This document shows positions 2,311 to 31,066 of a stretch of 64,000 nucleotides of DNA, piece after piece. How positions within the stretch are numbered: the first letter of the stretch is position 1; each line of letters opens with the position of its first letter. A program made the position numbers and the translations under genes. This DNA comes from Siphonodentalium dalli. Lineage: Eukaryota; Mollusca; Scaphopoda; Gadilida; Siphonodentaliidae. Where the stretch lies: the NCBI GenBank assembly GCA_032622095.1, contig CP136062.1, positions 4,774,001 through 4,838,000 on the forward strand. The letters are read 5' to 3'. Below the pieces are notes generated by a model, which was given only the letters and a program-made list of their open reading frames with translations, searched no databases and was not told the origin of the DNA.

Positions 2311-2332
2311 TGCAAGATAGCAGGTTTTGGGT

Positions 2333-2348
2333 GGCCCTGAAAATGACC
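2333..2348 (-). terminator. Histone-type 3' stem-loop A
   Basis: On the minus strand this reads GGTCAT-TTTC-AGGGCC with flanks AAAAAC before and ACCCA after, as in replication-dependent histone mRNA 3' ends. One stem pair is mismatched (A-G) and one is a U-G pair. It starts 13 nt after the stop of the minus-strand ORF 2362-2793. The AAAGATACGCTCT block found after the other three stem-loops is not obvious here, so this copy may be weaker. Confidence 0.7.
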
Positions 2349-2361
2349 GTTTTTCGCCAGA

Positions 2362-2793
2362 TCACAACAACAGTGGATAAAGGGTCCTTAGGAACTCAAA
2401 TCCATCCTTTTGGTCCAACTCCCGAAAGACAAGTGAACCCTCGATGAGAGATGGAAATATACCTTTCGGTATACTCACATTCCTCACTTGGGATACGCTG
2501 AATCTGTATTGCTTTTTCTCTTTCCAAAACACGAGTTTTCTCTGCAGAAGGGTTGCCGCCACCGTGAGTAAGATATCTGTTGTCCCAAGCCATTCGATAT
2601 GTTCTATATCCTGTCCACTGAACAGTGTAGGATTGCGAGCCCAAGTTGCACAGACAAAAGTGAATAGTTCAAAGAACTTTTCACCTGTACCATACACTGC
2701 CCAGGAAAGGGCCTCACACACTGCAATGTCCCTCGGGGCCGATAAATGGATGGCTCTGACATAAGATCCAAGATCAGTAACAGCGTATTCCAT
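2362..2793 (-). CDS. Weakly OTU-like protein, peripheral Polinton gene
   Basis: An intact 143-residue ORF. Residues 26-45 (CEALSWAVYG, then FFELF) and 68-90 (WLGTTDILLTVAATLLQ, then LVFW) follow the order of the helix and central-strand region of OTU cysteine proteases. The GDxNC catalytic motif is absent (PRDIAV instead) and no His follows residue 65, so protease activity is doubtful. Fragments of a paralogue lie on the plus strand at 14628-15050. The shared promoter module (2825-2925) is upstream, with a TATA-like ACATATAA about 35 nt before the ATG; a histone-type stem-loop follows the stop. The OTU link is tentative, but the ORF and its regulatory frame are well supported. Confidence 0.6.
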   Translation of the reverse strand: MEYAVTDLGSYVRAIHLSAPRDIAVCEALSWAVYGTGEKFFELFTFVCATWARNPTLFSGQDIEHIEWLGTTDILLTVAATLLQRKLVFWKEKKQYRFSVSQVRNVSIPKGIFPSLIEGSLVFRELDQKDGFEFLRTLYPLLL

Positions 2794-2824
2794 CGTGGAG
2801 AAATGATATGCTCTAAATGGGATT

Positions 2825-2925
2825 TTGTTATATGTAAAACGCGCGGAGGTCGTTGGCTACGTCATTGTGTTTATCTACCAATTTTCCGGAACGTCATTTC
2901 AAATGTGTTTCTTTTTTTGTTGAAT
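2825..2925 (-). promoter_or_regulatory. Shared peripheral promoter module, copy A
   Basis: Read toward the gene it contains, in order, AAAGAAACACA, a TGACGTTCC box, AAATTGGT (inverted CCAAT-like), CAATGACGTAG, a CCGCGCG block and ACATATAAC. The same blocks in the same order precede the genes at 14409, 14628 and 15803. TGACGT matches CREB/ATF half-sites, and CCAAT plus TATA are typical of metazoan histone promoters. Function is inferred. Confidence 0.7.
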
Positions 2926-3208
2926 TAAGATCTTCATCGACATTGCCGAAGACGATCATTAAAAACAGACACTGTTTTTCAACAACATACCTTTTATTTT
3001 TGAATTAAGAATCAACATATTTACAACTGATCATGAAATTATCATATTTGCAATCAATAATTGGTAATTCAATGAACATAATTAACATTTGGTAACTCAT
3101 TTCATCATTAATTAACAATCATCATATTTACAAATGATTATGATTATTAACATATTTAAACAATTGGTAATGAGCACATTTTATCAATAATGAAATTCAC
3201 AGTAAGTC
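2926..3208. other. AT-rich 3' region of the capsid-protease block
   Basis: AT-rich sequence of short degenerate repeats (AACATATTTA and ATCATATTTGC words) between the protease remnant and the peripheral promoter. On the minus strand an AATAAA signal lies at 2993-2998, about 210 nt past the protease stop. The core transcript therefore probably used ordinary polyadenylation, unlike the stem-loop genes. Confidence 0.55.
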
Positions 3209-3714
3209 TTACAAGTTTGTGAAATACATGTTTTTGAGTAATGTTTCTGATTCGTTTCGTGCGGGCTCATAGTTTCTATGAAACCAATCCAATACTTTTC
3301 TATCATTTTTGAAGTAGTCACCATCAAAATTCATTTCAACTAATACTTTTATACCATATCCGCTTTTCAAGAAATGTAAAGCAAATATGCAGTAGATACC
3401 ACACACGTTTGTACCGTGATGTTGAAACCGCCCAACGTTTATTTTACATCGTTCGAATTTCTTTGAATAAATGATTTGATATATGTATCAATAACTGGTA
3501 TCCCAAACGAATCGAAATATGTTGCAATGTTTCCATTGAAGAAAATTGCAACCCAGTGTTCTCCTGGTTTTTTCTGACGTATGTGTATTTACTATGTATG
3601 CTTTTACATGATGAGGTTTCTCGTGTGGTACTGATCTTTTGCACACACCACACCATACAATGAACAGAGGTAGGGTGGTTTGTCTAGTATTTGCTGAAGT
3701 TCGCTTGTGTTCAT
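3209..3714 (-). pseudogene. Adenain-like cysteine protease (PRO), broken
   Basis: The Polinton homologue of the adenovirus maturation protease, which would cleave capsid precursors in the virion. The fragment starts MNTSELQQILD; then follow GEHWVAIFF (catalytic His), YFDSFG (acidic residue) and, near the end, NVCGIYCIFAL (nucleophile Cys), so order and spacing fit the C5/Ulp1-type fold. At least two frameshifts and an in-frame stop separate the pieces. It lies directly downstream of the major capsid remnant, as usual in Polintons. Confidence 0.8.
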
Positions 3715-3856
3715 CTTCGTAGTATTATTTTACTTTTTCACACCACAAGTCAACAAAAACCGAATTAAATTGGTTACAGTTTGCATAAACAACTCCCTTT
3801 ATATCTTTCCAAAGTTTGAATGCCTCAAATTTCCCTTGTGGTGTAAATGATTCTAT
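3715..3856 (-). other. Short open stretch between capsid and protease remnants
   Basis: About 45 open codons on the minus strand, with words such as FKLWKDIKG and FVDLWCEKVK, then a stop just before the protease start. There is no start codon of its own. It may be a displaced piece of a neighbouring gene; I do not recognise it. Confidence 0.3.
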
Positions 3857-4853
3857 TTATGGATACAATTGTTCCATAACTCGGTAGATGTTCAATTTAA
3901 GTAGTGCTATATCAATGAACATATCTACCCATTGTATAGGTGGTGTCCAAAGACAAAGTAAATGTCGTGTCTGACTTGGATGATCTATTTTACATCCTTC
4001 ACAATTGAGTGTCACTTCTTTTGAAATTTGCAGTCTCAATTTTGCGTTGATCACTGAAGCTAGAGCTGCAACAAACTGAAGCTCTAACCTTATGTTACCA
4101 GTTTGTATAGGATGCAAATGTCCTTCCTCTGCTCATTGTTCAGGTGTGAGGTCGTAACCCCAGAAACAATAACCATAATACTAATTTTCCGTCTGCCTGA
4201 CCAATTAAAGAGAATTTTGGATTTGCTCTAATGAGAAGAATTCTTATCTCAATTCCATTTGGTAAGTATTTCTCTTGTAGAAATATATCTGTGTGTAAAC
4301 GACCACACAATTATACCGTTTTACTACCTGCTATGATTGCTTGGCGAGATTTCAATCCATCATTACGACCAGCTTTAGTGTTTTCGGTGAACTGTTTAGC
4401 GGTGTCTGGATACCACATTTCTAGTGCGGCAAGTTGATTTTCTTTACATTCACCAGAATAGGCCAAGAGATTTTCCATATAGACTCGATAAAGATAGGTA
4501 TCTCCGTTTGCCGTTACAAGTTTGTTATTTAGGTTCATATCGATACTACTGAACATGCTATGGAAAAGGTTTTTAATAGGCGCAATTTCATCAGTACCAT
4601 CAACCAAGTTTGTTCCATCTGCTTTTGTGATTTTGAATTTCAGGTACAAATATGATTGATTCACATATGTCCATTTTTCAGTTTGAGGCGGAATTACCAA
4701 TTCTACCGGTGCGGAATTATTCAAAGAGCTAATTGGGTGATGTTCTATCCATTGTGATTCCAACATCGTTGTCATTGTTGGTGGAACATCAGAAGCATCA
4801 ACTCTAACTTGCTGCATTAGCATGATCCATTTTGCATCATCATGATTAATCAA
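3857..4853 (-). pseudogene. Major capsid protein (double jelly-roll), broken
   Basis: The first 180 residues are open and typical of Polinton capsid proteins: QWIEHHPISSLN, then PVELVIPPQ, YLYLKFKI, FHSMFSSIDMNLNNKLVT and YLYRVYMENLLAYS, the start of the first jelly roll. The frame stops at 4311. The C-terminal signature (YYGYCFWGYDLTPEQ near 4140, QTGNIRLELQF near 4100) reappears after stops, and the middle of the protein is mostly deleted, since intact homologues run to several hundred residues. It follows the small virion gene 4846-5224. Confidence 0.85.
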
Positions 4854-5224
4854 ATATATCGAGAGATCGTTTTGATTTCTTTACATGCGCTTTAATGGAC
4901 TTACTTCTAACTTGTTTGCAAGAAGAATGATTTTTCAAAGGCCGCGATGATCTATTTATGCATTTGGTGTTGATATTTTCTTTATTGTTTCCTTTCCAAA
5001 AGATTTCAATGCTTCTTTGCCTTGTTTCAAAAATACTTTTTTGGACTTTTACCATGATGAATGATATCTTCGACTGCAGCAAGTCCATGCTTGAATACTT
5101 GTTGTTTAGCAATCTGACCAATAGGTTTTAGAAACGGTACTACTGTTCTCATTGCAGATTCGAATAGTGAACCAATTCCATTTCCATACTGTCTAGGTAC
5201 GCCTCTATACACGGGGATCATCAT
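4846..5224 (-). pseudogene. Small Polinton virion-type protein, frameshifted
   Basis: It starts MMIPVYRGVPRQYGNGIGSL, followed by a hydrophobic/basic helix region (FLKPIGQIAKQQVFKHGL). A frameshift in an A-rich run near 5040 splits it from the continuation KQGKEALKSFGKETIKK. Genes of this kind, with an RGxGIGS-like start and a basic tail, sit beside penton and capsid genes in many Polintons; their role is not settled. The ATG overlaps the penton stop (ATGA), showing a compact operon-like layout. Confidence 0.6.
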
Positions 5225-6021
5225 AAATACAAATTACTTCGGCGTCGGAAATGCAACTTTACCATAGTCTTTCCACCAACAAACTGAATTGCTTTGTCAG
5301 TATCACCAGATATATATACACATTTATGATATCAAAGCTAGACTTTGATACTGGTACATAATGTAAGTTTTTGAATTCATGCTTAATATGTTGACCATTA
5401 TGTATTCTTTAACCCTCGAATGGTGTCTCTCGTAATATCGGTGCCTCAACTTAACCAACAATTGTATAATCAGCGATATCAGAATAAACAAACAACTGAT
5501 TATGCTCCGCATTTAAATCAACTCCATATGGAATTGTTATCGAATAAGTAGCAAATGTAGCAGTATCTGATTCTGTTCTGTAACCAAGGTTATCCAAAAG
5601 AGCTCTGGGGAGTACAAGACCTACTTTGGTGTAACTATTGGTTGAAATTTTAACTCGTTGTTGTGCTTTGGAATATCCGAATTCGAATTACAGTTGCTTA
5701 CTGTACTATCAATTACACTTTGAATTGTATCTGTCAAATGTGCTGTACCAGAATATGCTCCTTCTGGTATTGTTAATTCTATACCATTTTCTGGTTTTGA
5801 AATTACTACATCACTTATTGGTAACTTGTGCAGGTATTGTAAAATTCTTGGAACAGAAGTTTTTTATGTTATTATGCAAGCATCTCCAATAATGTTGTAT
5901 GTTTCCGATGGTACAATTAGGTCAACCATTGCAACTTCACAAAGCTCTTTATCAATATGTATGTATTTTGGTAATTTCACTGTGAGTTGGCTGGGTAAAG
6001 TGACATTGAACTATCACTCAT
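5221..6021 (-). pseudogene. Penton / minor capsid protein (single jelly-roll), broken
   Basis: The N-terminal fragment includes LPKYIHIDKELCEVAMVDL and PSETYNIIG; C-terminal fragments include QLFVYSDIADYTIVG, LHYVPVSKSSFDIINVYI and VKLHFRRR. Together they match the usual beginning and end of Polinton penton proteins, which form the fivefold vertices. Several stops and frameshifts interrupt the ~265 codons. The final TGA overlaps the ATG of the next gene. Confidence 0.75.
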
Positions 6022-6305
6022 AAGAGTTATGTAGAATTAATTCATTTTTTCTCAGTATGTTTCAATAATTTCAGTCCAGGTGTTGGTAGAATATAACCTA
6101 GAGAACTACTTAGAAGAATAAGCCACAATTCTTTGTTTGCGCTATGGATACTAATGTGTATAATATATGTAATCATTTTGATATAAATAATAATTATCTG
6201 CGTGTGACTTGGTTCTTAGCAACGTTTTCACCACAGAACTTAAATCGTGATGGTTCATAGAGATTAATTGAATCTGAATGAGATTGGGACATGATAAATT
6301 ATGTT
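6022..6305. other. AT-rich spacer between integrase and penton remnants
   Basis: AT-rich DNA with short chance frames only. No domain or regulatory signal is recognised. Confidence 0.5.
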
Positions 6306-7160
6306 TTATACTAAATTTGAAGCTGGGATCCAACTGTCAAACTGTTTTGGGTATCCAAGCCAATGAACTTAAATTTCTTTTACTGTTTTAACACCCACTC
6401 TCCTCGTTCTTTTATCAATAACTGATTCTATTTCATACAACTTACTGTCTTTTATATGTTGGATTTCATGTTTGTAGAATTATCCATCAATCTCTTCACC
6501 ATCAAGATCAGAAACTTTGTATGTGATTGGATTAGTTTTACAAATTTTATCAATTTTGAAAATTTCACGAGTCCAGTTTGGTAAATAACCCTTTTCAAAT
6601 GTTCTTTTGGTTTTGTTGATACGAACCAAGTCACCCAATTTCAGTGTATATTTTCCTTTTTTATTTCCTGTTCCATATAGATTTTTGGAAATTTCAGCTT
6701 CAGTTTTCAAAGTAACTTTCGACGGTTTCGATTTTATTCTACGGTGATAGCTATTGTTGTAAGAATCGACTAGGGGCTGTAAAACATCGATATATCTTGA
6801 AGTTTTACTGTGTGTGAAATATTTCCACATACGAGTTTTTAAAGTTCTTTGAAATCTCTCAACAATACTGGATTTAGTCTGTGGATTCTCAGTTGTGAAG
6901 AAATGAAGATCAGCTAAATCTGCCTGCCATTGAATATCAATTCCAGCTACAACAGTCTTTCTACGTTGGAATTTTCGAATTATTGGTTTGTGTAAAGTAT
7001 ATGTCGACTAGCCTTGCAACCATTTCTTCACATCTATGAGTTTTATTTTTTTATTTAACTTTTTCGCTTCATAAAAAAGTTTCTTTACACCGCCATAACT
7101 TCCAACTTTCTTCGAATTATAGATAATTTTAGATAACTGTTCATCTAGTATGGATCCCAT
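6306..7160 (-). pseudogene. Polinton integrase with chromodomain; catalytic core deleted
   Basis: A retrovirus-type DDE integrase that would insert the element into host DNA. Visible parts in order: an N-terminal region from M at 7160 (KVGSYGGVKKLFYEAKK, VKKWLQG), a TAG stop at 7008, STYTLHKP and IQWQADLADL (first catalytic Asp), then immediately KSSIVERFQRTLKTRMWKYF (catalytic Glu). The central part with the second Asp is missing, about 100 codons. Next come the GDLVRI...PNWTREIF module and a C-terminal chromodomain (LYEIESVID, VHWLGYP, FDSWIPASNLV). Two more in-frame stops lie near 6478 and 6368. It cannot be catalytically competent. Confidence 0.88.
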
Positions 7161-7733
7161 TGTGTTTGTTTCTGTTTTAATACCCTTTGGTGTCAACCTA
7201 TCTGCTATTTTAGTTTTTGAATGTCTTGCTTTTATACCTTTCATTTGTGTGAATCGATGAGAATCAAATCGTTTTGGTTTTATGCTTTGTACCTGAGTTT
7301 CAAAATTATCATCTGAATCATCTTTCAAATGTTTTTTAATCCAAAGCAAACGGTTTCTGTTCCCTACAAAATCGTGAGGTACATTTTGTTCGCATAATCC
7401 TTGTGAAAAGGTTTGCCAACCTGTTGGTTCGAAACCTTGTCTTTGTCGTACAATATCATTGAGGAGATCAACAATATTTGATCCTCTAATAACTTTTTCA
7501 CCATATGTTAATTGTCCATTTTCATCAAACTCCATTTGCGGATGTTTTGAAATCAGTTGTAAAAGTTGTTCAGCTTTTGTTCTCATCTTTAGCGGAATAC
7601 TTTCCAGCACATCCCTATGATGATTAAATGGTTGTTCTGTTTTCGGGGTTGAAATAGCTCTAACTGATTTTTGAGAAGTTTTCAATTTGTGCAAAGTTGT
7701 ACCATATAATTGAACCTTCTCAGATTCTGACAA
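7008..7733 (-). CDS. Unknown Polinton virion-type protein running into the integrase N-terminus
   Basis: A 241-residue ORF. Residues 1-~185 resemble a conserved Polinton protein of unknown function: the MEFDENGQLTYGEKVIRGSN, IVDLLNDIVRQRQG, GWQTFSQGL, NVPHDFVGN blocks are typical. From M192 (7160) the frame enters the integrase N-terminal region without a stop. Either a stop between two genes has been lost or they were translated together. It lies ~150 bp downstream of the pX-like gene. Confidence 0.65.
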   Translation of the reverse strand: MSESEKVQLYGTTLHKLKTSQKSVRAISTPKTEQPFNHHRDVLESIPLKMRTKAEQLLQLISKHPQMEFDENGQLTYGEKVIRGSNIVDLLNDIVRQRQGFEPTGWQTFSQGLCEQNVPHDFVGNRNRLLWIKKHLKDDSDDNFETQVQSIKPKRFDSHRFTQMKGIKARHSKTKIADRLTPKGIKTETNTMGSILDEQLSKIIYNSKKVGSYGGVKKLFYEAKKLNKKIKLIDVKKWLQG

Positions 7734-7884
7734 ATTTTTATCAGAAACTTAATTCAATTCTCTGCTTAGTTTGAAAAATTCGTAATTTCAGGATTAAGTG
7801 GTAATTTCAGATTAGTTAGACTCATTCTCCATTTTTTAATGTCATCCAACATTTTGAAGGGAACAGCGACCATTTTCTTCATGT

Positions 7885-8226
7885 CTAACCACGAAGTATT
7901 CCAGCGACTGGTTTACCAAGCAACGGTGCTAGCATAAGAAGTGGTAAAAAACCTACTTTCTGGTTTAAAATTTGTTTTTTTCGTTTCAAAGATGTTGATT
8001 TACTTGCAAGTTCTCTGAGGTGTCTACACCTCGGACGAAGTTTGCGCTTCTGAGCTTCTGTTAGTTTTACATTGCCTTTTAAAATATTTTTACAGTATTC
8101 TGACATGCAATCAATCACTCTCTTTGGGGCATCTTTTATCATTTTGTTTCGAAAATGAGTTGGTGCCTGATTCTTAGCCATTACAAAACTACCATATTTT
8201 TTAATCAGTGGAGTTTTTTTCGCCAT
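7885..8226 (-). CDS. pX/pVI-like basic membrane-active protein
   Basis: An intact 113-residue ORF. It is basic (KLTEAQKRKLRPRCRHLREL, then SLKRKKQIL) and ends in a hydrophobic segment (VGFLPLLMLAPLLGKPVAGI). This basic region followed by a GFLPxLL tail is characteristic of the Polinton/adintovirus proteins compared with adenovirus pX or pVI, thought to help genome packing or membrane passage. The start is 36 bp after the preceding stop. One of the few core genes left unbroken, perhaps because it is short. Confidence 0.65.
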   Translation of the reverse strand: MAKKTPLIKKYGSFVMAKNQAPTHFRNKMIKDAPKRVIDCMSEYCKNILKGNVKLTEAQKRKLRPRCRHLRELASKSTSLKRKKQILNQKVGFLPLLMLAPLLGKPVAGILRG

Positions 8227-8262
8227 ATTTACTCTTCAACAGTTGAATGTCAAATTACTTAT

Positions 8263-8829
8263 TTACTTATTACTTTTACGTTTATTATAATTACGATCAA
8301 ATGCCATCAAAGCTAATTTTGATGGGTTTGAAAGATTCATAATTGTTGAGTATCGTTGAACCAACGGGTAATGTTCTGCTTCTTGAACTGATGGAATTGG
8401 TTGCGGACCATTATCGTTGAGTGGTTGAAATCTAGCAAATGTAGAATTTAATCCAGTAGTATTTACTCTAGCTGGAGTAGCTCGCTGTGAAATTGTATAA
8501 TTTACTCTAACTGGACTAGCTCGCTGTGCAATTGTAGAATTTACTCTAGTAGCATTTACTCTATTTGGTCTAACTCGTGCAATTGATTTATTTTCTTTTT
8601 GTCTGAGAAGACTTCTGATCAAAACTCCACCGAGAAATCCATCTCCACCAGTTTTTAAAAGTATTTTCTTTTTTGAATCGATATGAGTTGTACAGTCAGC
8701 TATTTTCTTCAGCTCTTTTTTGTGTTTTTGTAGAAATGTTCATGTCTGCTTTGGAAGCTTTAAGTGATCATCAATAATTAATTTAGCTATAGTCAAAAAT
8801 ACACTCAACACTGCTTCATGCGACTCCAT
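8263..8829 (-). pseudogene. Repeat-containing virion-type protein, one in-frame stop
   Basis: A 189-codon reading frame from ATG at 8829 with a single TGA after 29 codons; the open remainder restarts internally. Features: a KKELKKIADCTTHIDSKKK stretch, KTGGDGFLGGVLIRSLL (glycine-rich hydrophobic segment like the pX group), then three degenerate ~16-residue repeats containing RVN.T..QRA.PAR, then a neutral tail. DNA repeats with GCTCGCTGTG underlie them. It sits between ATPase and pX-like genes. Function unknown; a virion role is inferred from position. Confidence 0.5.
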
Positions 8830-8860
8830 GATTGGAAATGAAAATATTATGTTGATAGAC

Positions 8861-9464
8861 TTATCTTAATACCGATGAATATATTACCGCACCTCGGTCG
8901 TCATTTGTGAGCCAGATATGGAAAATATCAGTTCTCAGTCTCAACGATTTATCCGTTTTCGGGTGAAGATCGAGTAGTAAATAACCATGATTGGTTGAAG
9001 TTGCATCATCATATGCTTTGAAATAGTACTTTGAAATAGTACAAGTGTAATGTGCATTCAAACTCAAAGTTCTAATCGCTTTAGATTTCTGAAACATGTT
9101 TTGGGTTATTTAAATAACAGACCTATTTCTGTGATGTCCTTTTCTTGTAAACCAAAACATAATTTTTTCTTCATCTTTATCACCTAACATGTCGTCAAAA
9201 ACGACGAGGTGCGGTAAGTCTGTGTCATCGACAAGTTTATTGTCATCATCCGGTATTCCATTTATAAATTAAATATTGTGAAATTCTTGCATCTGACTAT
9301 AGATATTTTGCCATTCTTTGTAACACCAAACGATTTTTATGGAACAGGTTTGAACAAGTCATCTTTATATTCGATAATTTCTTAACAAATTATGTTTTAC
9401 CACAACCACTTGGTCCCGATATGAAAATGTTACAGGGATGTTTGAACAACAATGATTCGTCCAT
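8861..9464 (-). pseudogene. A32-like packaging ATPase (FtsK/HerA), broken
   Basis: The motor that would package DNA into Polinton capsids. Walker A is clear (FISGPSGCGKT) about 22 codons from the ATG at 9464; the next codon is a TAA stop. Walker B follows in another frame (LPHLVVFDDML), then FWFTRKGHHRNRSV and ITQNMF. The open C-terminal part (8861-9097) carries NHGYLLLDLHPKTDKSLRLR, the usual tail of these ATPases. At least one frameshift and two stops are present. Confidence 0.82.
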
Positions 9465-9860
9465 GTTTACCCTGAGACAGATCATGTAAGACTGATTAGG
9501 ATTGTTCGGAATGAACCTTTTTTATTTTTAATGAAGAATCACCATAACTCTAGATTATTCCAAATGTCCATATGAGTTCATTATCTAAGTCTGAATTAGG
9601 TCTAGTGGTTTTTACAATATAATCCAGACACTTTTTCTTCAAATAACTTTTCACCAGTGAAAATTGCACATGGTTCTCGGAGAATAATGTATCCATATAT
9701 TCTCGTCACCTCTTCGAATTTCAAAGTTTTTTCATGGAGAATCCTGTCTTGATATTCAGCAAAACGAGTAAAATTAATTTCAACGAATTTCGTTTATTTT
9801 GTTTTTAGGAACACCATGAAATATTCAATAATCTGAAAACAGTTGATCCAATATATCCAT
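9465..9860 (-). pseudogene. Unrecognised Polinton gene, broken
   Basis: Open stretches in different frames upstream of the ATPase: MDILDQLFSDY from ATG 9860, then FVEINFTRFAEYQDRILHEK and FEEVTRIYGYIILREPCAIF ending at a TAG near 9602. A further piece (YLKKKCLDYIVKTT) lies in another frame. Together they suggest a ~90-100 codon gene lost to frameshifts. No family recognised. Confidence 0.35.
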
Positions 9861-9878
9861 TAAGAAATCAGTTTCAAA

Positions 9879-10106
9879 TTATGATCTCTCAATCAAACAT
9901 CTCAATCGACTCTGCCCCTCAGAGAAATGTCCGTTCAGCAAAGTCTGCACTATAATATTACTTTCCTTCAAAAACCAAGTTTGTTTAAGTTCTCGTTTGA
10001 TTTCTTGATAAATTTTTGACATTTCGATCAAGTTATTATAAATTTTCAAAAGCATCTCTGCTGGTAACACATCAAGTCCACCCATAAGGAATTGTGTTGT
10101 ATTCAC
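9879..10106 (-). CDS. Small ORF with F-box-like start
   Basis: 75 residues, overlapping the 3' end of the polymerase gene by 35 bp in another frame. Residues 11-26 (LDVLPAEMLLKIYNNL) resemble the start of an F-box (LPxELLLKIFxYL), the motif that docks substrates to SCF ubiquitin ligases through Skp1. The rest is helical and unrecognised. A 16-residue likeness is weak evidence, and the ORF could be a fragment. Confidence 0.4.
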   Translation of the reverse strand: MNTTQFLMGGLDVLPAEMLLKIYNNLIEMSKIYQEIKRELKQTWFLKESNIIVQTLLNGHFSEGQSRLRCLIERS

Positions 10107-13100
10107 TCACAACAAGTCGTTTGGTGTACACAGATCGGAATGTTTTTGTTTGCTCTTCACTAAATACTTCTCGGTTCTTTGTGCGTTTAATTCTGCATGG
10201 ATAGTTTATGACACGTTGAAAGTTTGACCGGTCATTAACACATTCAACCATTGAATGAAAATGTATTTGCTGTTTAGTTTTATAATCCCGAGTGATACCC
10301 TTGACCTTACATACATATTTTATGACACCATCTTTCACGTACGGATATCCATAATTTTTCGGTCCTAACCCTACAAATTTCATGATTTAACATCCGGATG
10401 CTCATCAGTCCATTTACCAAGGTAGCTGTCTTCGGTTTTGATATTTTCTTTTTCTGGATCGAAAATATACATACAGCTATCGGTGTCGAAATACAACACC
10501 CTATCTTGGAGTTTTTCTAAAACATCATACAACTCCAAGCGTGCATATGCTGTGACAGATGATGCGACAACTACATTGGCAGATGGATGTGGTTCTATAA
10601 TATCGGTTTTATTTTCATAGCTGAATAATATGAATTTATCATGTTCAAGAATTTCAACTACTTTGACGGTGATATTTTTATCAGTTAGTAGTTCAAAATA
10701 TCTGGATGGTTCTGAGATATATTCAGTTTTAGTAAGAATATTATTTTGTGCATTTTCCCCCATATGCAATTTATCATTAATTTTGCGCACTGGCAGTGTC
10801 CTGGGGTTTTCTCGATTTTTTCTTTTTCAAGTTTTATACCTTCAAACTGATAATAATCTTTAATGTATTTATCTTTATCTTCTTCACTTTTAACAGAATT
10901 TGTATATCCACTTGCTTCTTGCTTAATTTTGAGGTATTTATCAATGTAGTCCCTGTATACTTTGTCCGACCACTCAGTCCAATGCCAAACTTGATGACCA
11001 AGAGGGTACTCCCTATATTTATTCACACTAGGATACAAACTGCATATATCGATATATTTTATTTCCTGTTTAGATGATGGTTTTATTTCATGATATAATT
11101 TTACTGCCAAGAGGGTACTCCCTATATGTATTCACACTAGGATACAAACTGCATATATCAATATATTTTATTTCCTGTTTAGATGTTGGTTCTATTTCAT
11201 GATATACTTTTAGAGCATTAGTCCTACCACCAAATATTGTTTCCCTTGGTTTAATTGGCTCTTGATGCAAATATAATTGATCCATAGTTTGTTCTAAATT
11301 TTTTCTGCTTTACATTTATTGTCTAGGTCATGATCCCAGATGCATATTAATATGCATCCCAAGCTTTTGATTTCAGTTTCCGTTTTTATTGTTTTTTTCA
11401 TACAATTCATGCATTGTTATATTACTGTATGGGTCACACCAATACATTTCATACAATGTGTTTGATTTTGCATGATAACCATCAACATAATGTGTGCCTA
11501 TTGTATCTTCACCACCATTTAAAACATGTTTTATGTTTATATTTTGTTATGTAGCAATTTACTGTAGCCATCGAATTGCTTTCATTGAAAATTTACGCGC
11601 TTGTGGATATCCAGCAATTGAAATTATACCTAGAGAATTCTCTGGTAATGAATGTTTTCTCCATGCAAGATTACAGGTTTGAGCTAATGTTATTGCTTCC
11701 CGGAATGGATCAATTTGATCATTTTCCATTACACATAGTCTGAATTTATCACATCCACGTCTTAAAATGTCTACATCTGATTTACAATACTTTTGAATTT
11801 CTTTTTGGATATCAAAAATAGCCTTACCCCTAGCTTCGTACCATTTCAGAAATGGATCCTTATTTTCCTCACATGATATCAGGTTTATAGTATTTATTGT
11901 CTAGATATGGTCCTACGTAATTCTGAAAGTCCTGTGTATTTGCCCAATGTGGAAAATAACCTTTAGCCATTTCTTCAAGTTGGAATGTTTTTGGAAATTA
12001 GATAATGCCATTGGGATGAAACACAATGAATCGATTACTCTAACACCATTACATTGTAAACTCAGTATTTTGATACCATTCATAATAACATTAGGTTTTT
12101 ATTTTCCATTGTTCACCTAGTAATGTAAGAGGAACCGACTATCGTAACCTCTTGCATTGTGAGCAATACATGTTGTGCCTTTATGGTCGTTGGTGTAAAA
12201 CAACCATTTACAAAATCTTTCCAATACATTTTCACCTTTAAAAACATATTCTCTATTTGACAATACAGATTCACATGAATTGCATATTTCATCAATGGGT
12301 TTACATATACAATTTTCACAAGCAGTTTGCGCAACACAAACATTGGGTATATGAACACCAATATCTTGTTGACATTCAAAATCCAAAAAATAAGAATGGT
12401 ACCTTTACTTCTTTCTGTGTTTCTTTCTTTTCGTACTGTTGAATATGACATCTGTGGTCTGATGGAACGATTTCCTTACAGTATTTGCACTTCTTTGTTC
12501 CCGGACAGATATGTCTTTTCTCCTTTCGTGTGACAATATCAACCCCGCATTTCTGGAATTTGTGTATCATATCACAAATAGTTTTGTCTTGTTTTGGTAA
12601 TTTTTTTCAAATGATTGTCGAGACATCGTTTACTTCTAAAAGTCCTCTAACATTTGGTGCAGTGTATCCCTCGTTCAAAGGGACATATCTGTCCCTCCAA
12701 ACACATACACTTGTATGAACATAAATGATCACCTCTGCTATTCGTACCGACATCAAAGTGCTCACAGTAATAATGACATCCAAGGAATCCTGTGACAGTT
12801 GTGATCACATCGTAGAGGTTGTCATTGAAATATAAATGGATAACTTTACTTTCTTTCCCAACTGGTGGTGGTTGAAAAGTAAAGCCTTCGTCAGAAAATT
12901 CATTATGTATTTTTATAACATACTCCGGATATAGTTGTTCCTGAATAAGTTTGTATTCCTCAACCCCGCAACTGGTGTCGTGTGATATACCCACTTTATC
13001 CAACACTGACTTTGCAGATTCCCGTTATGGAGCTCTTGCTGGTCTCATAATCCGTTTCCATTGTTGCTTTCATTCAACGGTATCGTTTTTGTCAACATTA

Positions 13101-13675
13101 CACATACCAAAAACGACAGCCCTCGCAAAACACATGTTATCTTCTGCGTTCTGAATCAGAAGAATACTTTTCTTTACTGTTTTCATTTGATTTTTTTCAC
13201 CGAATGCTCCATAATGTAAGGTATGTCTTGCGGTCCCTGTAGGCATGCGCGAGACAGTGATATCAAATGTCATCTGTCCGTCATGAATTTTGAATTATTT
13301 GTCCGATTGTGCAACTTTCTCTATGTTGTCAAGCAATAATTCACCCGTCAGTTCTTTTGCTTCAGTGAACGGGACGTGAATCCCTAGATCTAGCCCTAGA
13401 TGAAAGATGGAAATTCTCATGTGATCTTTTGGTCCTGCATTACACTCATCTTTCAAACTGTTCACCAGATCTATGAAAATTCTGTGAACAGTCTGAAATG
13501 GTTGATTAAATTCTTGAAATGTGACTTTGTATTTCTTTGATGTTGTTTTACATTTCCTCGAGTATTTATCGGTCAGATTTGTTATAGTATAATATTTACA
13601 ATCGTCATCCAGTCGCACTCTCTTTCTATTATCTCGTTCGCTTTCGCTATCTGAATATGGCACAAGGCGCTTCAT
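10072..13675 (-). pseudogene. Protein-primed family B DNA polymerase (PolB), broken
   Basis: The replicase of the element, about 1,200 codons. Visible in order: a basic N-terminus (MKRLVPYSDSESERDNRKR), the conserved Polinton N-terminal region (HRIFIDLVNSLKDE, NAEDNMCFARAVVFG, YLYDVIT-like NLYDVITTVTGF with Cys/His pairs), a CKYC...H zinc-like segment, Exo I LDFECQQ, Exo II HNARGYDSRFL, Exo III YCKSDVDIL, motif A DICSLYPSV (twice, through a 109-bp duplication), motif B KLMINCIWGKM, motif C YFDTDS (10476-10493), FVGLGPKNYGYPY and the KRTKNREVFSEE tail. Stops lie at 13297, 13072 and ~13023, with frameshifts near 12640, 12400, 10755 and 10383. Inactive as it stands. Confidence 0.92.
10998..11215. 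repeat. 109-bp tandem duplication inside PolB motif A
   Basis: 10998-11106 and 11107-11215 are near-identical; both contain CCAAGAGGGTACTCCC and GGATACAAACTGCATATATC. The unit encodes the motif A region, so DICSLYPS appears twice. 109 is not a multiple of three, so the duplication also shifts the frame. The few differences suggest it is not brand new. Confidence 0.9.
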
Positions 13676-13677
13676 CT

Positions 13678-13794
13678 TGAAATGACGACGTGATGAAACA
13701 TCGCGTCGCGTTTATGCTCTGACACGGGCATGCGCAGTCATCGCCCGTGTCAGAGCGTAACAGCGACGCGATTTTTCATCACGTCGTCATTTCA
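13678..13794. promoter_or_regulatory. 117-bp palindromic bidirectional promoter (PolB and 58-codon gene)
   Basis: A near-perfect inverted repeat with ~50-bp arms (TGAAATGACGACGTGATGAA ... TTCATCACGTCGTCATTTCA) around a ~17-bp centre containing CATGCGCAGTC. Each arm carries GACGACGTGATG and CTCTGACACGGGC. It begins 3 bp from the PolB ATG and ends 32 bp before the ATG of the divergent gene at 13827, so it must contain both promoters or the 5' leader of PolB. The central CATGCGCA resembles an NRF-1 half-site. Confidence 0.75.
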
Positions 13795-13826
13795 CTGACG
13801 ACTAAATAACGCACCGAACGCTGACC

Positions 13827-14003
13827 ATGGATCCACGATTGCAGTGTAACAACATACAACATTTACGAAAAATTGCATTAGAAGTTTTAAAGAATACAAA
13901 GTGGATACCACCATACGGTAACAGTTTTAGGTGCAATTCGAGTTCACATTGGGCTTTTCAATGTGATGGCACTACGAAAAAGAAGATTGATCAGATGATT
14001 TAA
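13827..14003 (+). CDS. Small divergent gene, 58 residues, unknown
   Basis: Starts MDPRLQCNNIQHLRKIALEV and ends KKKIDQMI. It has three cysteines, aromatic residues near the middle and a basic C-terminal stretch. It is driven from the palindromic promoter shared with PolB, so it may be an early gene. No stem-loop in the sense orientation follows it; the hairpin at 14059-14074 belongs to the convergent minus-strand gene. No family recognised. Confidence 0.5.
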   Translation: MDPRLQCNNIQHLRKIALEVLKNTKWIPPYGNSFRCNSSSHWAFQCDGTTKKKIDQMI

Positions 14004-14058
14004 TTACTTGTTACATTTTTTTAGCAATTTCAGAGCGTATCTTTTGAAAAATTTGGGT

Positions 14059-14074
14059 GGCCCTGAAAAGGGCC
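14059..14074 (-). terminator. Histone-type 3' stem-loop B, perfect
   Basis: On the minus strand: GGCCCT-TTTC-AGGGCC, a perfect 6-bp stem with the UUUC-type tetraloop, preceded by AAAC and followed by ACCCAAA. This equals the metazoan replication-dependent histone 3' consensus. The stop codon of the minus-strand gene (14077-14079) ends only 2 nt before it. About 13 nt downstream is CAAAAGATACGCTCT, at the position and with the A-rich character of a U7 histone downstream element. Confidence 0.88.
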
Positions 14075-14076
14075 GT

Positions 14077-14409
14077 TTAAATTGTTGGTGAGTCAATAAA
14101 ATTCAGACAAATCAGGATAAAGTCCACACTTGTTGTATGTGGGCCAAATTCAGACAAATCTGGATATAATGCTCCCTCCTTATACGCGGGTTTCCACTCT
14201 GGAGTTTCCACATACACCTTGGGAGGACAAGGTCTCCGTCTTTGCAGGAATTCTTGAACTCCAGCTCTAATTTCTAACTTATGTCTCTCCGAATCTCTAA
14301 CATTCTTCTGCTAATGCTTTAATCGAGCATCGGCAGAGAATTTTAGCAAAACTTTCTCTTTTAGTTTAGAGACATTTTGAAGATAAAAAAACGCTACTCT
14401 GCGCTCCAT
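14077..14409 (-). pseudogene. Peripheral Polinton gene, ~110 codons, one in-frame stop
   Basis: Reading from ATG 14409: MERRVAFFYLQNV and KEKVLLKFSADARLKH, a TAG stop, then QKNVRDSERHKLEIRAGVQE, RRRPCPPKVYVE, TPEWKPAYKEGALYPDL to TAA at 14077. The frame stays open after the stop, so a single mutation or read-through is possible. It lies behind one arm of the palindromic promoter; the TATA-like CATATAAT is only ~5 nt before this ATG, so the true start may differ. It ends in stem-loop B. Family unknown. Confidence 0.55.
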
Positions 14410-14410
14410 A

Positions 14411-14590
14411 TTATATGAAACGCGCGGACGTCGCCGACGACGTCATTGCATTTTTTCAACAATTTTCCCCGAACGTCAAATCAAGTGTGTTTCTTTTTGA
14501 CAAAAAGAAACACACTTGGTTTGACGTTCGGGGAAATTTGTTAAAACACGCAATGACGTCGTTAGCGGCGCCCGCGCGTTTTCAAAAAAA
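14411..14590. promoter_or_regulatory. ~165-bp palindromic bidirectional promoter (shared modules B and C)
   Basis: Two copies of the peripheral promoter module head to head, centred near 14500 (TTTCTTTTTGACAAAAAGAAA). The arms contain AACGCGCGGACGTCG..GACGTCATTGC / GCAATGACGTCG..CCCGCGCGTT and CCCCGAACGTCAAA / TTTGACGTTCGGGG. Copy B faces the minus gene at 14409 (CATATAAT box) and copy C the plus gene at 14628 (AAATAAACA about 35 bp upstream of the ATG). Arm identity is higher than between distant copies, so the two face-to-face copies may be kept alike by gene conversion. Confidence 0.78.
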
Positions 14591-14627
14591 AATAAACATA
14601 CATCCACCATTCTTCATTCATACTGAA

Positions 14628-15050
14628 ATGGATTACCGAGATCTGTATCGGAGTTATTTGGAGGAGGGGTTGATGGTGAGATGTGTTTTTGGAGATGAAA
14701 CACAGATGATCTGGAAGGCTTTGAGTCTAGCAACACCGGGTACTGTAGATAACTTCTTTGATATATACAGATATACGTTATGCTGATATCACAGAGGTTG
14801 GTTATTCGGATTACCACCACGGTTGTTTGGATACACCAGGTTGCTGGGATCGTCAAGACTGACGGTGCGACTCGCTGCTACCTTGCTGCAGCAGTCTATT
14901 ATAATCTTCTCAGGGCACATGGTCTACGAGTTCTTACCGCTCTGGGGGATACAGACAGGCCAGCTATGCAATTGTGCCATTTGGTTGCGACGTTCCCAAG
15001 ATAACTTCCAGGTTTATTCAAACCCAAATACACAGTGCGGTTTCTTTTGA
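14628..15050 (+). pseudogene. OTU-like paralogue of the left-end gene, frameshifted
   Basis: Starts MDYRDLYRSYLEEGLMV; FGDETQMIWKALSLA aligns with the OTU catalytic-loop region and with CEALSWAVYG of the ORF at 2362-2793 (note GD present, catalytic Cys replaced). The frame stops at 14786. The second half continues in another frame from 14823 (VRLAATLLQQSIIIF, matching LTVAATLLQRKLVFW of the left gene) to a TGA at 15048. At least one frameshift, probably two, are needed. It is followed 13 nt later by stem-loop C. Confidence 0.6.
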
Positions 15051-15063
15051 AACCATCCAAAAC

Positions 15064-15079
15064 GGCCCTTTTCAGGGCC
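15064..15079 (+). terminator. Histone-type 3' stem-loop C, perfect
   Basis: On the plus strand: AAAAC, then GGCCCT-TTTC-AGGGCC, then TCACAAA. The stem is perfect and the loop canonical; the 3' flank departs from ACCCA by two bases. TCAAAAGATACGCTCT begins 11 nt after the stem, matching the block after stem-loop B although this one lies on the opposite strand. Confidence 0.86.
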
Positions 15080-15116
15080 TCACAAATTTGTCAAAAGATA
15101 CGCTCTACCATTGCTA

Positions 15117-15232
15117 CCGTACGATTTGTTCATTCTTCCTGAACTCGGAGAGAATGTTCACATAATTTATCAAACATTACTTGTTCATTCATCCTGATCT
15201 TGGAGAGAATGTTCACATAATTTATCAAAGAA
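15117..15232 (+). repeat. 57-bp tandem duplication
   Basis: Two adjacent copies of a segment containing GAGAGAATGTTCACATAATT, differing at a few positions (CTGAACTCGG versus CTGATCTTGG). It lies between the convergent 3' ends of the genes marked by stem-loops C and D. Non-coding. Confidence 0.85.
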
Positions 15233-15333
15233 TACTTCCCTAACAATAAAAAACCCACTACCACCCTTCATATCTATAATACGATCATCATGTAGCATAA
15301 TAATACAGAGCGTATCTTTCGTGAATTTGAAGT

Positions 15334-15349
15334 GGCCCTGAAAAGGACC
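15334..15349 (-). terminator. Histone-type 3' stem-loop D
   Basis: On the minus strand: AAAC, GGTCCT-TTTC-AGGGCC (one U-G pair), ACTTCAAA. It starts 19 nt after the stop of the intact gene 15369-15803. Downstream is CACGAAAGATACGCTCTG, whose CGAAAGA is close to the classical U7-binding CAAGAAAGA of histone genes. The compensated U-G pair keeps the stem closed. Confidence 0.87.
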
Positions 15350-15368
15350 GTTTAAAATAATATAAAAA

Positions 15369-15803
15369 TCATTTCTTTTGTTTCTTCATCACTGCTAAAT
15401 CTTTCCCGAATGATCCAAATGTTGATCGCTTCGTAGGTTGTTTCTGGAAACCATGTACCTCAATTGGTATGTCGATCGTGTGAGGTTTCAAGTTGATTGT
15501 ACATTCACCCGGTTTTTGTGTTAACTGCTTTCGCAAATCCTTCATTTCCTGACAAATATTCCGTAACAACTTTGTCTGTTCTTCCCCTTGTGAACTGTTG
15601 ATAACTTGGTATATAACAGGTTGAATCATTTGTTGTGTTTTCACCGGCGGTATATACACTGGTTGTTGATACGTTCGCGGAAACATCGTTGGTACATGTT
15701 GCTGTTCTAACCGTGGTGTCACATTTCCCGCATACATTTGCGTTGCAGGAACAGGATCGTACTGTACATCAATAGTCTTGAGAAATTCCGTTACTGGATC
15801 CAT
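15369..15803 (-). CDS. Intact peripheral Polinton protein, 144 residues, unknown
   Basis: Starts MDPVTEFLKTIDVQYD. Residues 30-70 are Pro/Gln/Tyr-rich and probably disordered; 72-96 (EEQTKLLRNI, QEMKDLRKQL) are predicted helical or coiled coil; 107-120 alternate like a beta strand (HTIDIPIEVHGF); the tail is basic (KDLAVMKKQKK). It could be a scaffold, terminal or DNA-binding protein. It is unbroken, has promoter module D upstream (TATA-like CATATAG ~65 nt before the ATG, with two short upstream ATGs between) and stem-loop D downstream. Confidence 0.6.
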   Translation of the reverse strand: MDPVTEFLKTIDVQYDPVPATQMYAGNVTPRLEQQHVPTMFPRTYQQPVYIPPVKTQQMIQPVIYQVINSSQGEEQTKLLRNICQEMKDLRKQLTQKPGECTINLKPHTIDIPIEVHGFQKQPTKRSTFGSFGKDLAVMKKQKK

Positions 15804-15867: not shown

Positions 15868-15951
15868 CTATATGAGATGCGCGGGCGTCGCTGACTACTC
15901 CATTGTGTATTTTACCAATTTTCCACGAAAGTCAAATCAGGTGTGTTTCTT
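15868..15951 (-). promoter_or_regulatory. Shared peripheral promoter module, copy D
   Basis: Toward the gene: AAAGAAACACACCTGATTTG, GACTTTCGTGG, AAAATTGGTAAA, CAATGGAGTAG, GACGCCCGCGC and CATATAG. Both TGACGT boxes are mutated relative to copies A-C while spacing is kept. It abuts the inner edge of the right terminal repeat, so the transcription signal sits just inside the end of the element. Confidence 0.65.
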
Positions 15952-16372
15952 TTTTTTGTCAAAAACATCATATTTCTGCGAATAAAACACCGATTTGACT
16001 CGGGAAGATTTTTATATGTACCATTTTACCATTATCTCATAACATATTTCACTGAAAGGTAATTTCTACGAGTACATTTTACAACGCTATCGTCTTCGAA
16101 TCTATTCGAAGACTTTCGCTTTGGTTAAAAAATGCACTGGTAAAGTGGCACAATTTACTAATGCCTCGATTTTTGTTCGGTATTATTCTAAGTTCAGTGT
16201 ATCCAGCGAAGGGGAACGCCCTTCGCTTACCACACTGCCATTAGAATCCGAGATAAAATCGAAGCATTAGTAAATTATGCTCTTTTCTGTCAAAACCCTT
16301 CGAAGCGCTCACCTTACTCTTTGGGATGTAACACAACCTCTGGACCGACGAACCCGGCCTTGGGCAGCAACT
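15952..16372 (-). repeat. Polinton right terminal inverted repeat
   Basis: The reverse complement pairs with 1265-1684; the terminal bases are GCAACT. It contains a single 30-bp minisatellite unit (near 16205-16235), so the 15-copy array is a left-end novelty. Confidence 0.92.
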
Positions 16373-16427
16373 CTGGCCCACCCCCTCTGGGTCGACCCAG
16401 GTTTTTTCTGGCCCATCCCAGCTCTGG
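16371..16427. repeat. C-rich direct repeat flanking the Polinton, right copy
   Basis: CTCTGGCCCACCCCCTCT, then a GGGTCGACCC insert, then TTTTTTCTGGCCCATCCCAG and CTCTGG. It matches 1224-1264 in direct orientation except for the insert and a few changes. See the left copy for the alternatives. Confidence 0.6.
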
Positions 16428-27664: not shown

Positions 27665-29858
27665 TAAAATCCAAGATGGCCACGACACCCACGTTTTTTT
27701 TGCCAAATGACCCCAAAAAAAGAATCCTTCCTATTTACATGTCATTGTTAACATCCTGCACAATTTTTATAATGATCCGACAAAAGATACGACCTGTAGA
27801 GATACGACCTGTAGCCTGTGTCAAAGGATTTAGTTGTGTAAAGAGTAAAATACAAGATGGCTGCTGGCGGCCAGGTTTTTTGGTTGAATTCAAAATAATT
27901 CGTTTCCCATCTACATATAATTGTTAACATCCATGACAAATCTCATGATGATCGGATCAAAGATAAGACTTGTAGCCCTTGCCAAAGAATTTGGTCATGC
28001 AAAGAGTAAAATCCAAGATTGCTGCTGGCGGCCATGTTGTTGGCCGAACGCCCCCAACATTACTTCTTTCCCATCTACGTGTCAATTGTAACATCCATCA
28101 CACATTTAATAATGATCCGACAAAAGATACGACCTGTAGCCCGTGCTAATGGATTGAATTTTGAACAACCCCAAAATGACTCGTTCCCATCTACATTGTA
28201 CATGTCAATAGCCATGACAAATATCATAATATTCTGACCAAAGGTACGACCAAGAGCCTGTGCCGAAGGATTTAGTCAAGCAAAGAGTAAAACCCAAGAT
28301 CACTGCTGACGGCCATGTATTTTGACCGAATGACCACAAAATGATTCGTTCCCATCTACATGTCATTGATAACATCAATGAAAAATTTCATGAAGATCCG
28401 ACCAAAGATACGACCTGTACCCCGCGGCAAAGGATTTGCAAAAGAGAAAAATCAAAGATGCTCATGACGGCCATGTTTTTTGGCCGAACTACCCCAAAAT
28501 GACTCGCTCCCATCTGCCTGTCATTATTAACATCCATGACAAATTTCATGATTATCAGACGAACAGTACGACCTGTAGACCGCTCCAATCGATTTAATTT
28601 TGAAATCAAAGATGGCTGCCAGCGGGCATGTTTTTAGGCCGAATGACCCCAAAATGACTCGTTCCCATCTACATATAAGTTTCAACATTCATGACAAATT
28701 TCATAATGATCTAACCAAAGTAAGGACCTGTAGCCTGTGCCAAAGGATTTAGTCATGCATACAGTAAAATCCAAGATGGCTGCTGGTGGCCATCTTTTTT
28801 GGCCGAATGACCCCAAAAGGACTCGTTCCCATCTACATGTCATTGTTAACATCCATTACAAATTTCATGAAGATCCGACCAAAGCTACGACCTGTAGCCC
28901 ACGCCAAAGTATTTAGTCATGCAAAGAGTAAAATCAAAGAATTTAAGATGGCTGCTGGCGGCCATGTTTTTTGGCCAAACAACCACAAAATGACTCATTC
29001 GCATCTACATGTCATTATTAACATCCATGACAAATGTCATGATTATCCGAAACAAAGCTACGACCTGTAGCCCGCGCCAAATGATTTAGTCATGCAAAGA
29101 GTAAAATCAAAGATGGCTGCTGGTGGCCATCTTTGTTGGCCAAACGACCACAACATGACTCATTCCCATCTACATATCATTATTAACATCCATGACAAAT
29201 GTCATGATGATCAGACAAACAGTACGACCTGTAGACCGCGCTAATTGATTTAATTTTGAAATCCAAGATGGCCGTCAGCGGCCATGTTTTTTGGCCGAAT
29301 GACCCCAAAATAACTCGTTCCCATCTACATGTCATTGTTAACATCCATCACAAATTTCAATAAGATCCGACCAAAGGTACGACCTGTAACCCGCACCAAA
29401 AGATTTAGTCATACAAAGAGTAAAATCAAACATGGCTGCTGGCGGCCATGATTTTTGGCTGAACGACCCCAAAATGACTCGTTTCATATCTACATGTTAA
29501 TTTTAACATTAATAACAAATTTCATAAAAATCATACCAAAGGTACGACCTGTAACCCGCACCAAAAGATTTAGTCATACAAAGAGTAAAATCAAACATGG
29601 CTGCTGGCGGCCTTGTTTTTTGGCCAAACGACCACAAAATGACTCATTCGCATCTACATGTCATTATTAACATACACGACAAATGTCATGATTATCCGAC
29701 CAAAGCTACGACCTGTAGCCCGCACCAAAGGATTGAGTCATGCAAAGAGTAAAATCAAAGATGGCTGCTGGCGGCCATGTTTGTTGGCCAAACGACCACA
29801 AAATGACTCATTCCCAACTACATGTCATTATTAACATCCATGACAAATGTCATGATGA
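27665..29858 (+). repeat. ~160-bp satellite array 1
   Basis: About 13 units averaging 155-170 bp. Each carries CCAAGATGGCTGCTGGCGGC, CATGTTTTTTGGCCGAACGA, ATGACTCGTTCCCATCTACA, GACAAATTTCATGA and ATTTAGTCATGCAAAGAGT in order. Some units replace the ATTTAGTCATGCA end with ATTTAATTTTGAAATCC, giving two unit types. Open frames of 60-110 codons are repeat artefacts. Confidence 0.92.
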
Positions 29859-30507
29859 GGCCTAAAAAAATAATACCTTTGTTTCCGCTAACGAGCTAAA
29901 CAAATTTAGGGTAGGTAGGTAGGCTTAACTTTTTTTGTTTGTTAACTTTTTTTGTTTCAGTATCTTTAAAAATAACTGTATAATACTTGTCAATAACCCA
30001 AACTATGCACTTCTTGGCCCCAATCAGGTCAACCCAGATGACAGAGGAACTAGAAACATTAATCTTACATATGTTTTAATATTTACATATATACTTATCT
30101 ATATACTAATATAGTCTTGGATAATTCTAATATTTCCCATATGGTCTGGCGACAACTGGAGTCAGTCCAGCACCACTGCACTGTTCACATATTGGAGTGA
30201 CCGTCTTGTACCGATCTCTTAAGGATGGCTTCACAACACCACCTTCTCCTCCGCATTCAGTGAAGGATGTAGGTATTGTTTGGGGACACCTGTTTTTGGG
30301 CAATGATATGCCGAAGGCATAAACTGAAGGCCTGAGAGGAGGAATGTTTGGGAAGGGTGCCCCCTGATGATGGTGGGGGTTCTCCCCCTGGAATTTTTTT
30401 GAAAATCCATTGCATTTAGAGCTAATCTAATATGATCGTACGTGACACGTAATGGAGCAACCACCACAAGTTGATCATTAAGTTCAATGTTACAATTATT
30501 ATAGGAT

Positions 30508-31066
30508 GTACCATACAGGGTACTACATGTGCTACACCACTCGGAGAAATGTATGTGTCGTCACACAAATACCATGCTAGAACTTGGATTAATATATTCG
30601 TAATCGTATATAGTCACCAATAGCCGGGTTACTACCGTAGTAACGGACATTGTGCATCTAGTGAACTATTAAAACCCAGCATTAAAATCATGGTAATGAT
30701 CAGTCCAAACATATGAGTAAAGTTCGAACATAAGATAATAATAGCTGAGAACCTGGTGCGAATTGAACTGTGGTGGAGCCTCAAGCATATCTACCCCTGC
30801 ACGTCAGAACAGAATTATGCCATGAAATGGCATAAGTAGCTTGAGGATGGAAGTGAACCATCATCCCACAGCGAAATCAACCAGGCCTGTTGGGTTTGAA
30901 TAGTTCACTAGATGGGCAATGCCAGGTACTACGGTAGTAACCCGGCTATTGGTGACTATATACGATTACGAATATATCAATTCAAGTTCTAACATGGTAT
31001 TTTAGTGTGATGACACAGACATTTATCCGAGTGGTGTAGTACATGTAGTACCCTGTATGTATATAT
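30508..31066. mobile_element. Inverted-repeat (MITE-like) element, copy 2
   Basis: Counterpart of 26436-26985, with the same arms and centre (CATGAAATGGCATAAG), and again followed by TA-rich simple sequence at 31055-31082. The arms differ at scattered sites from copy 1. Confidence 0.82.

Follow-up and report, generated by a model that had tools for sequence, protein, structure and literature searches.

Histone-type 3' ends in a probable Polinton of the scaphopod Siphonodentalium dalli: firm for three genes, degraded in a fourth

The locus and its four terminal genes

We analyzed a stretch of 64,000 nucleotides from the scaphopod mollusc Siphonodentalium dalli (assembly GCA_032622095.1, contig CP136062.1, positions 4,774,001-4,838,000; hereafter the window, in which all coordinates below are counted). 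The window contains an element spanning ~15.1 kb, bounded by two terminal inverted repeats of 390 nt (1264-1653 and 15984-16373, 95% complementary to each other) and carrying the relic of a type B DNA polymerase, which is scattered over several frames of the minus strand (10072-13675, outer limits by eye; PF03175 and phrog_1907). The span falls within the Polinton range of 15-20 kb, and the terminal inverted repeats together with the type B DNA polymerase make it very probable that the element is a Polinton. The present study concerns the 3' ends of its terminal genes, g1 to g4. These ends are of the histone type, and the genes bearing them cannot be identified as histone genes; the assignment is firm for three of them, and the fourth end is degraded.

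Two of the four genes are intact. The reading frame of g1 (2362-2793, minus strand; 143 aa) had no family match in Pfam or PHROGs at E up to 0.1, and that of g4 (15369-15803, minus strand; 144 aa) had none that convinces, the best E being 0.086 in Pfam and 0.05 in PHROGs. g2 (14077-14409, minus strand) and g3 (14628-15050, plus strand) are gene relics, each of which can be read from an ATG up to the stop that precedes its hairpin, with one premature in-frame stop on the way. No histone family was found in g1 or g4 by the Pfam scan, which did not include the pieces of g2 and g3. Among the gene pairs compared, g1/g3 alone gave z > 3, with two short collinear similarities, each as high in none of 300 shuffles. 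To the eye, g1 and pieces of g3 are reminiscent of OTU-like proteases; no database match was obtained for g1, and the fold predicted for it from the single sequence was poor, with a mean pLDDT (predicted local distance difference test score) of 42.7. An OTU-like domain is described inside the pPolB polymerases of related elements in a section of the preprint PMC11071308.

Stem-loops behind the four reading frames

A first-pass annotation of this DNA had placed histone-type hairpins at 2333(-), 14059(-), 15064(+) and 15334(-). All four are present, but the one at 2333(-) has decayed. The stem-loop of g2 (14059-14074, minus strand) comprises a perfect 6-bp stem and a TTTC loop, and was matched by the Rfam covariance model RF00032 at 14034-14079(-) with 38.0 bits (E 1.5e-7), the one match in the window above the curated cutoff (gathering score, 34 bits). 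The stem-loop of g3 (15064-15079, plus strand) is identical in sequence to that of g2 and was matched at 15059-15104(+) with 28.1 bits (E 7.9e-4), while that of g4 (15334-15349, minus strand), in which one pair is G-U, was matched at 15309-15354(-) with 25.7 bits (E 0.0062), both being under the gathering score. At g1, the sequence GGTCATTTTCAGGGCC (2333-2348, minus strand) can form only 4 pairs, the stem being broken by an A-G mismatch, and RF00032 gave no significant match there in a search of 171 bases (2317-2353(-), 10.5 bits, E 7.4). The folding energies of the 16-mers were -9.9 kcal/mol for g2 and g3, -7.2 kcal/mol for g4 and -3.2 kcal/mol for g1. On account of the RF00032 scores, the A-G mismatch and the weak 4-pair fold of g1, we regard three of the sites as good and the fourth as a degraded copy; the curated cutoff was reached by one of the four, so that the outcome named beforehand in the first-pass annotation as a refutation, a lack of significant RF00032 matches, did not occur, and a 6-bp stem with a 4-nt loop is present in three.

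The three good hairpins, at 14059(-), 15064(+) and 15334(-), bear AAAC on the 5' side, as the first-pass annotation had described, and the single stem column that varies among them is occupied by C or T, so that the pair is retained as G-C or G-U. ACCCA, previously listed as frequent downstream of the stem, follows g1 and g2 only; the corresponding motif is TCACA in g3 and ACTTC in g4. When GGYCCTTTTCAGGGCC was searched with up to 3 mismatches, there were 5 matches in the 64-kb window against 0.27 expected, and none of 100 shuffles reached 5; the fifth match, with 3 mismatches, lies within the reading frame of g1 (2698-2713, minus strand). The earlier argument that four copies speak against chance is weaker than it was put, because the copies are probable duplicates and one is degraded.

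All four hairpins are in the sense orientation with respect to the genes, and are separated from the stop codons of g1, g2, g3 and g4 by 13, 2, 13 and 19 nt, respectively, which agrees with the range of 2-19 nt given before. Nearness to a stop means little alone, because stops in any frame are so dense that 67.5% of the element positions pass the same stop-distance criterion. If a stop is counted only when it terminates a stop-to-stop frame of 60 codons or more, all four sites qualify against a background of 4.8%; at 90 codons or more (background 1.5%), two of the four sites, g1 and g4, qualify. No AATAAA occurs up to 100 nt past any of the four hairpins; the next one downstream is at 166 nt for g3, 316 nt for g4 and 676 nt for g1, and none occurs within 700 nt past the hairpin of g2.

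A candidate downstream element and its conservation

Histone pre-mRNA processing needs a stem-loop and a histone downstream element (HDE), according to a section of PMC9756948, and a section of PMC7026596 adds that U7 pairs with the HDE and that cleavage falls between the two. We found a candidate for the second part, which the first-pass annotation had overlooked. The sequence AAAGATACGCTCT is identical behind the stems of g2 (14032-14044, minus strand), g3 (15094-15106, plus strand) and g4 (15307-15319, minus strand), always on the strand of the hairpin and with 14 nt between stem and block, as seen by both alignment and pattern search. Exact AAAGATACGCTC occurs at three places in the 64 kb, one behind each good hairpin at this distance of 14 nt; with up to 2 mismatches the matches amount to 14 against 3.89 expected, and five of the weaker ones sit in host tandem repeats at ~27.8-32.2 kb. 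The composite of AACGGYYCTTTTCAGRRCC, a gap of 8-22 nt and AAAGA was found three times in the window (g2, g3 and g4); in a 257-Gb collection of prokaryote DNA the hairpin-plus-AAAGA composite was found at two places, both inside open frames (296 and 87 codons). By its sequence, the AAAGATACGCTCT block fits an HDE, the site of pairing with U7 snRNA. The purine core of the mouse H2a HDE is AAAGAG in the relevant section of PMC7026596, and the AAAGAT in the block of the element is close to it. The degraded hairpin of g1 is followed by ACCCA and has no downstream element. A second partial copy of the terminal inverted repeat (2161-2303) adjoins this hairpin and may account for the missing element.

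The 3' regions of g2, g3 and g4 were aligned on the hairpin without gaps. All 4 columns of the AAAC flank and all 13 of the downstream block were identical, as were 15 of the 16 columns of the stem-loop. Identity was found at 6 of the 14 spacer columns, at 5 of 56 columns upstream of the flank and at 2 of 48 beyond the block. Hairpin, flank and HDE taken together, 32 of 33 columns were identical against the 6 of 14 of the spacer (Fisher p 7.4e-5), but, as the borders of the blocks were picked after the alignment was seen and the copies probably have a common origin, the Fisher p values given here and below are only a guide. g1 agreed with the others at 18 or 19 of the 20 columns of stem and flank and at 1 of the 13 of the HDE block. 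These sequences, their order, spacing and orientation and the pattern of conservation are read directly from the DNA. Such a pattern would be expected if a 3' block had been duplicated and its stem-loop and HDE had stayed under constraint while the spacer drifted.

A promoter-like block common to the four genes

A block of ~80 bp, also overlooked in the first-pass annotation, lies upstream of all four genes and was recognised by repeat comparison. The blocks of g2 (14412-14499, minus strand) and g4 (15869-15956, minus strand) belong to one repeat family with that of g1 (2831-2918, minus strand), to which they are 61% and 72% identical, respectively; the block of g3 (14502-14595, plus strand) is an inverted copy (73% complementary) and forms a palindrome with the block of g2. 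In the alignment, AAAAAGAAACACA is present in all four blocks, AATGACGT and CCGCGCGTTT in three and TTTGACGTTC in two, and a TATA-like stretch, identified by eye, comes next in g1, g2 and g4. As single words these motifs are less distinctive. AAAGAAACACA occurs exactly at all four genes and once more at 12416(-) in the polymerase region, so it is not exclusive to them; five further occurrences with one mismatch bring the total to 10 against 3.36 expected. CCGCGCGTTT, with 3 occurrences against 0.75 expected, is mildly above chance (4 of 100 shuffles reach 3). Because the common start and 3' blocks frame genes with mostly different coding parts, the arrangement looks, from its sequence, like a regulon rather than the product of gene duplication alone.

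Interpretation and alternative explanations

We consider it likely that the Polinton adopted histone-type pre-mRNA processing signals, which form the 3' ends of g2, g3 and g4 and once formed that of g1 as well. The first-pass annotation had advanced the same interpretation for all four hairpins; the RF00032 matches, the downstream element and the conservation pattern point to it at three of the four sites. SLBP binds the histone stem-loop, and the resulting mRNA has no poly(A) tail (sections of PMC9756948 and PMC7026596). By analogy, the SLBP of the host would bind the hairpin, and its U7 small nuclear ribonucleoprotein would base-pair with the AAAGATACGCTC block further downstream. Cleavage by the host complex a few nucleotides past the stem would then yield short mRNAs terminated by the hairpin in place of poly(A). 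We thus infer SLBP and U7 binding, cleavage, the missing poly(A) tail and a coupling to S phase. Together with the 3' signals, the shared promoter-like block would make the terminal genes a co-expressed set, and dependence on SLBP would tie their mRNAs to cells that replicate DNA, favouring expression during host replication. As the present copy is a fossil, the function is assigned to its active ancestor, in which SLBP and U7 of the host would have formed the 3' ends of the terminal-gene messages. The data suggest, in other words, that the element borrowed the machinery of the cell for histone messages. In a broader form of this proposal, the terminal genes of an animal Polinton lineage are expressed through the host histone mRNA pathway (common promoter, SLBP stem-loop and U7 element), without poly(A) and only in replicating cells, and we hold the prospects of this broader form to be evenly balanced. 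If true, genes of a mobile element would be non-histone clients of the histone mRNA pathway, and a mechanism would be at hand by which a DNA element times itself to host replication. Such transcripts would escape RNA-seq with poly(A) selection, and RNA data of the non-poly(A) kind would give a direct test.

Several observations weigh against the adoption of histone-type processing. One of the four hairpins is degraded and has no HDE block, and two of the three good ones are under the curated Rfam cutoff. The motif at the expected cleavage site (ACCCA, TCACA or ACTTC) is not constant. Both g2 and g3 have a premature stop. An ATTAAA is located 55 nt past the hairpin of g2 and, given this motif and the AATAAA 166 nt after g3, polyadenylation as a fallback is possible. 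The copies are probably duplicates inside one element and are not independent, as judged from the promoter-like and 3' blocks that they have in common. Identity is higher in the spacer (6 of 14 columns) than in the outer flanks (7 of 104; Fisher p 0.001), a difference that shared ancestry would produce by itself. Finally, no element related to the present one was found by protein and pattern scans of the viral_contigs collection: pattern searches returned 1, 8, 24 and 25 stretches for the capsid-like frame, g1, the polymerase piece and the integrase-like frame, respectively, and tblastn confirmed none of them as relatives.

In an alternative reading, the 3' end of a host histone gene was captured once and spread with a duplicated cassette of promoter and terminator, so that the signals are kept by descent and are irrelevant to expression now. 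Inverted repeats link the 3' regions of g2 and g3 (57 nt, 89%) and those of g3 and g4 (62 nt, 74%), promoter-like and 3' blocks are common to genes with mostly different coding parts, and the present copy is broken, all of which speaks for such a history along with the similarity of the spacers. Neutral descent, however, would have preserved the spacer as well as the putative signals, whereas 6 of 14 columns are identical in the former and 32 of 33 in the latter, and a capture as the origin of the signals is compatible with their function. We thus regard purely passive inheritance as unlikely, although it is the foremost competitor of adopted processing signals. Less probable still is that the hairpins are DNA-level signals, i.e., sites of replication, packaging or recombination, that resemble histone stem-loops by accident. 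The hairpins are near the ends of the element, which is rich in palindromes (13678-13794 and 14454-14546), but a DNA-level role leaves unexplained that four of four hairpins follow reading frames immediately and in the sense orientation, that their asymmetric flanks are on the correct sides, that the loop is of the histone type and that a block at fixed spacing lies downstream at three of the four. Chance resemblance, for which it can be said that two of the three good sites are under the Rfam cutoff and that stops are frequent in AT-rich sequence, is strongly disfavoured by the 5 GGYCCTTTTCAGGGCC matches against 0.27 expected and by three exact composites in one window against two in the whole 257-Gb prokaryote collection.

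Four patterns of histone-type hairpins were also run against viral_contigs and returned 2, 0, 3 and 8 stretches. One stretch (L001) had no RF00032 match, a second (L002) had one below the cutoff (19.8 bits, E 0.26), and the 11 others (L003-L013) lacked a match at the cutoff and were all located in open frames, which measured 78 to 654 codons. We took all 13 to be chance.

Comparison with known systems

The 3' ends described here share with those of replication-dependent histone mRNAs (RF00032 plus HDE) the 6-bp stem, the TTTC loop, the A-rich 5' flank, the nearby stop codon and the purine-core element downstream. Unlike replication-dependent histone genes, g1 and g4 have no histone match in Pfam (g2 and g3 were outside that scan), and the genes reside in a virus-like mobile element. 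The element in turn resembles the animal Polinton/Maverick type (adintovirus-like) in its length, its terminal inverted repeats and its polymerase relic, and differs from it in the histone-type 3' ends of its terminal genes.

The first-pass annotation knew of no report of this kind in Polintons, a claim that needs softening. A section of PMC12220804 (2025) lists six matches of the histone 3'UTR stem-loop (RF00032) from a cmscan of 8,300 genomes of Polinton-like viruses (PLVs) at the curated cutoff. Since these matches have already been counted, the presence of RF00032 in Polinton-type elements is not wholly new. The PLV/virophage matches belong to the same Rfam family and come from related elements, but the section on them only counts the matches and names neither their position nor a gene or mechanism, and for the 1,107 cryptophyte PLVs of that work it names tRNAs and group I introns as the only RNAs. 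Term searches found no 'stem-loop', 'histone' or 'polyadenyl' in the main text of PMC8097293, PMC11071308 and PMC9683012. We found no report of hairpin-plus-HDE ends on a gene set with a shared promoter in the literature as covered by titles and the starts of abstracts, a search outside which many subscription papers and preprints lie. Likewise, no paper was found that combines 'polinton' with 'histone stem-loop', which does not in itself show absence from print.

Other features of the element and the surrounding sequence

Within the polymerase relic, PF03175 was matched above the cutoff at 10685-11131 (E 3.9e-7) and the DNA polymerase family phrog_1907 at 10380-10826 (E 4.2e-14). The present copy is inactive, because its polymerase is split between frames and one premature stop interrupts each of g2 and g3. 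The relic also contains a tandem duplication of 109 bp (10998-11212, 95% alike). Other frames, which we take by eye to be capsid-, integrase- and protease-like, were not confirmed by sequence searches of Pfam, PHROGs and PDB, in which no significant match to an RVE integrase, a capsid or an adenain-like protease was obtained. The search of solved structures with the sequences of g1 and of the integrase-like, polymerase, protease-like and capsid-like pieces gave no useful match; a single row with E 0.8 was taken as chance. No clear 6-bp target site duplication was seen by eye at the ends of the element.

On its left side the element is enlarged by a 30-bp unit repeated 14.8 times (1721-2163), to which the right terminal repeat has one match (16214-16247). 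Of the two long palindromes (92-93% complementary), 13675-13799 is upstream of the first frame of the polymerase region and 14454-14546 lies between the divergent g2 and g3. Matches to microRNA and other Rfam families below the cutoff at 13674-13799 and 14444-14604 coincide with these palindromes and were rejected. A frame at 7885-8235(-) gave a weak match to PF00808 (CBF/NF-Y, archaeal histone; E 0.006, 17.3 bits against a cutoff of 21.4), and no histone-type hairpin from the GGYCCTTTTCAGGGCC search is near it.

On the host side, 10 of the 12 frames of at least 100 aa were scanned and gave no Pfam family above the cutoff. A 164-bp tandem repeat of the host forms large arrays at 27785-34301 and 40480-41253, with multiples of ~317 and 481 bp, and a second array, of a 62-bp unit in 49 copies, extends over 46244-49321.

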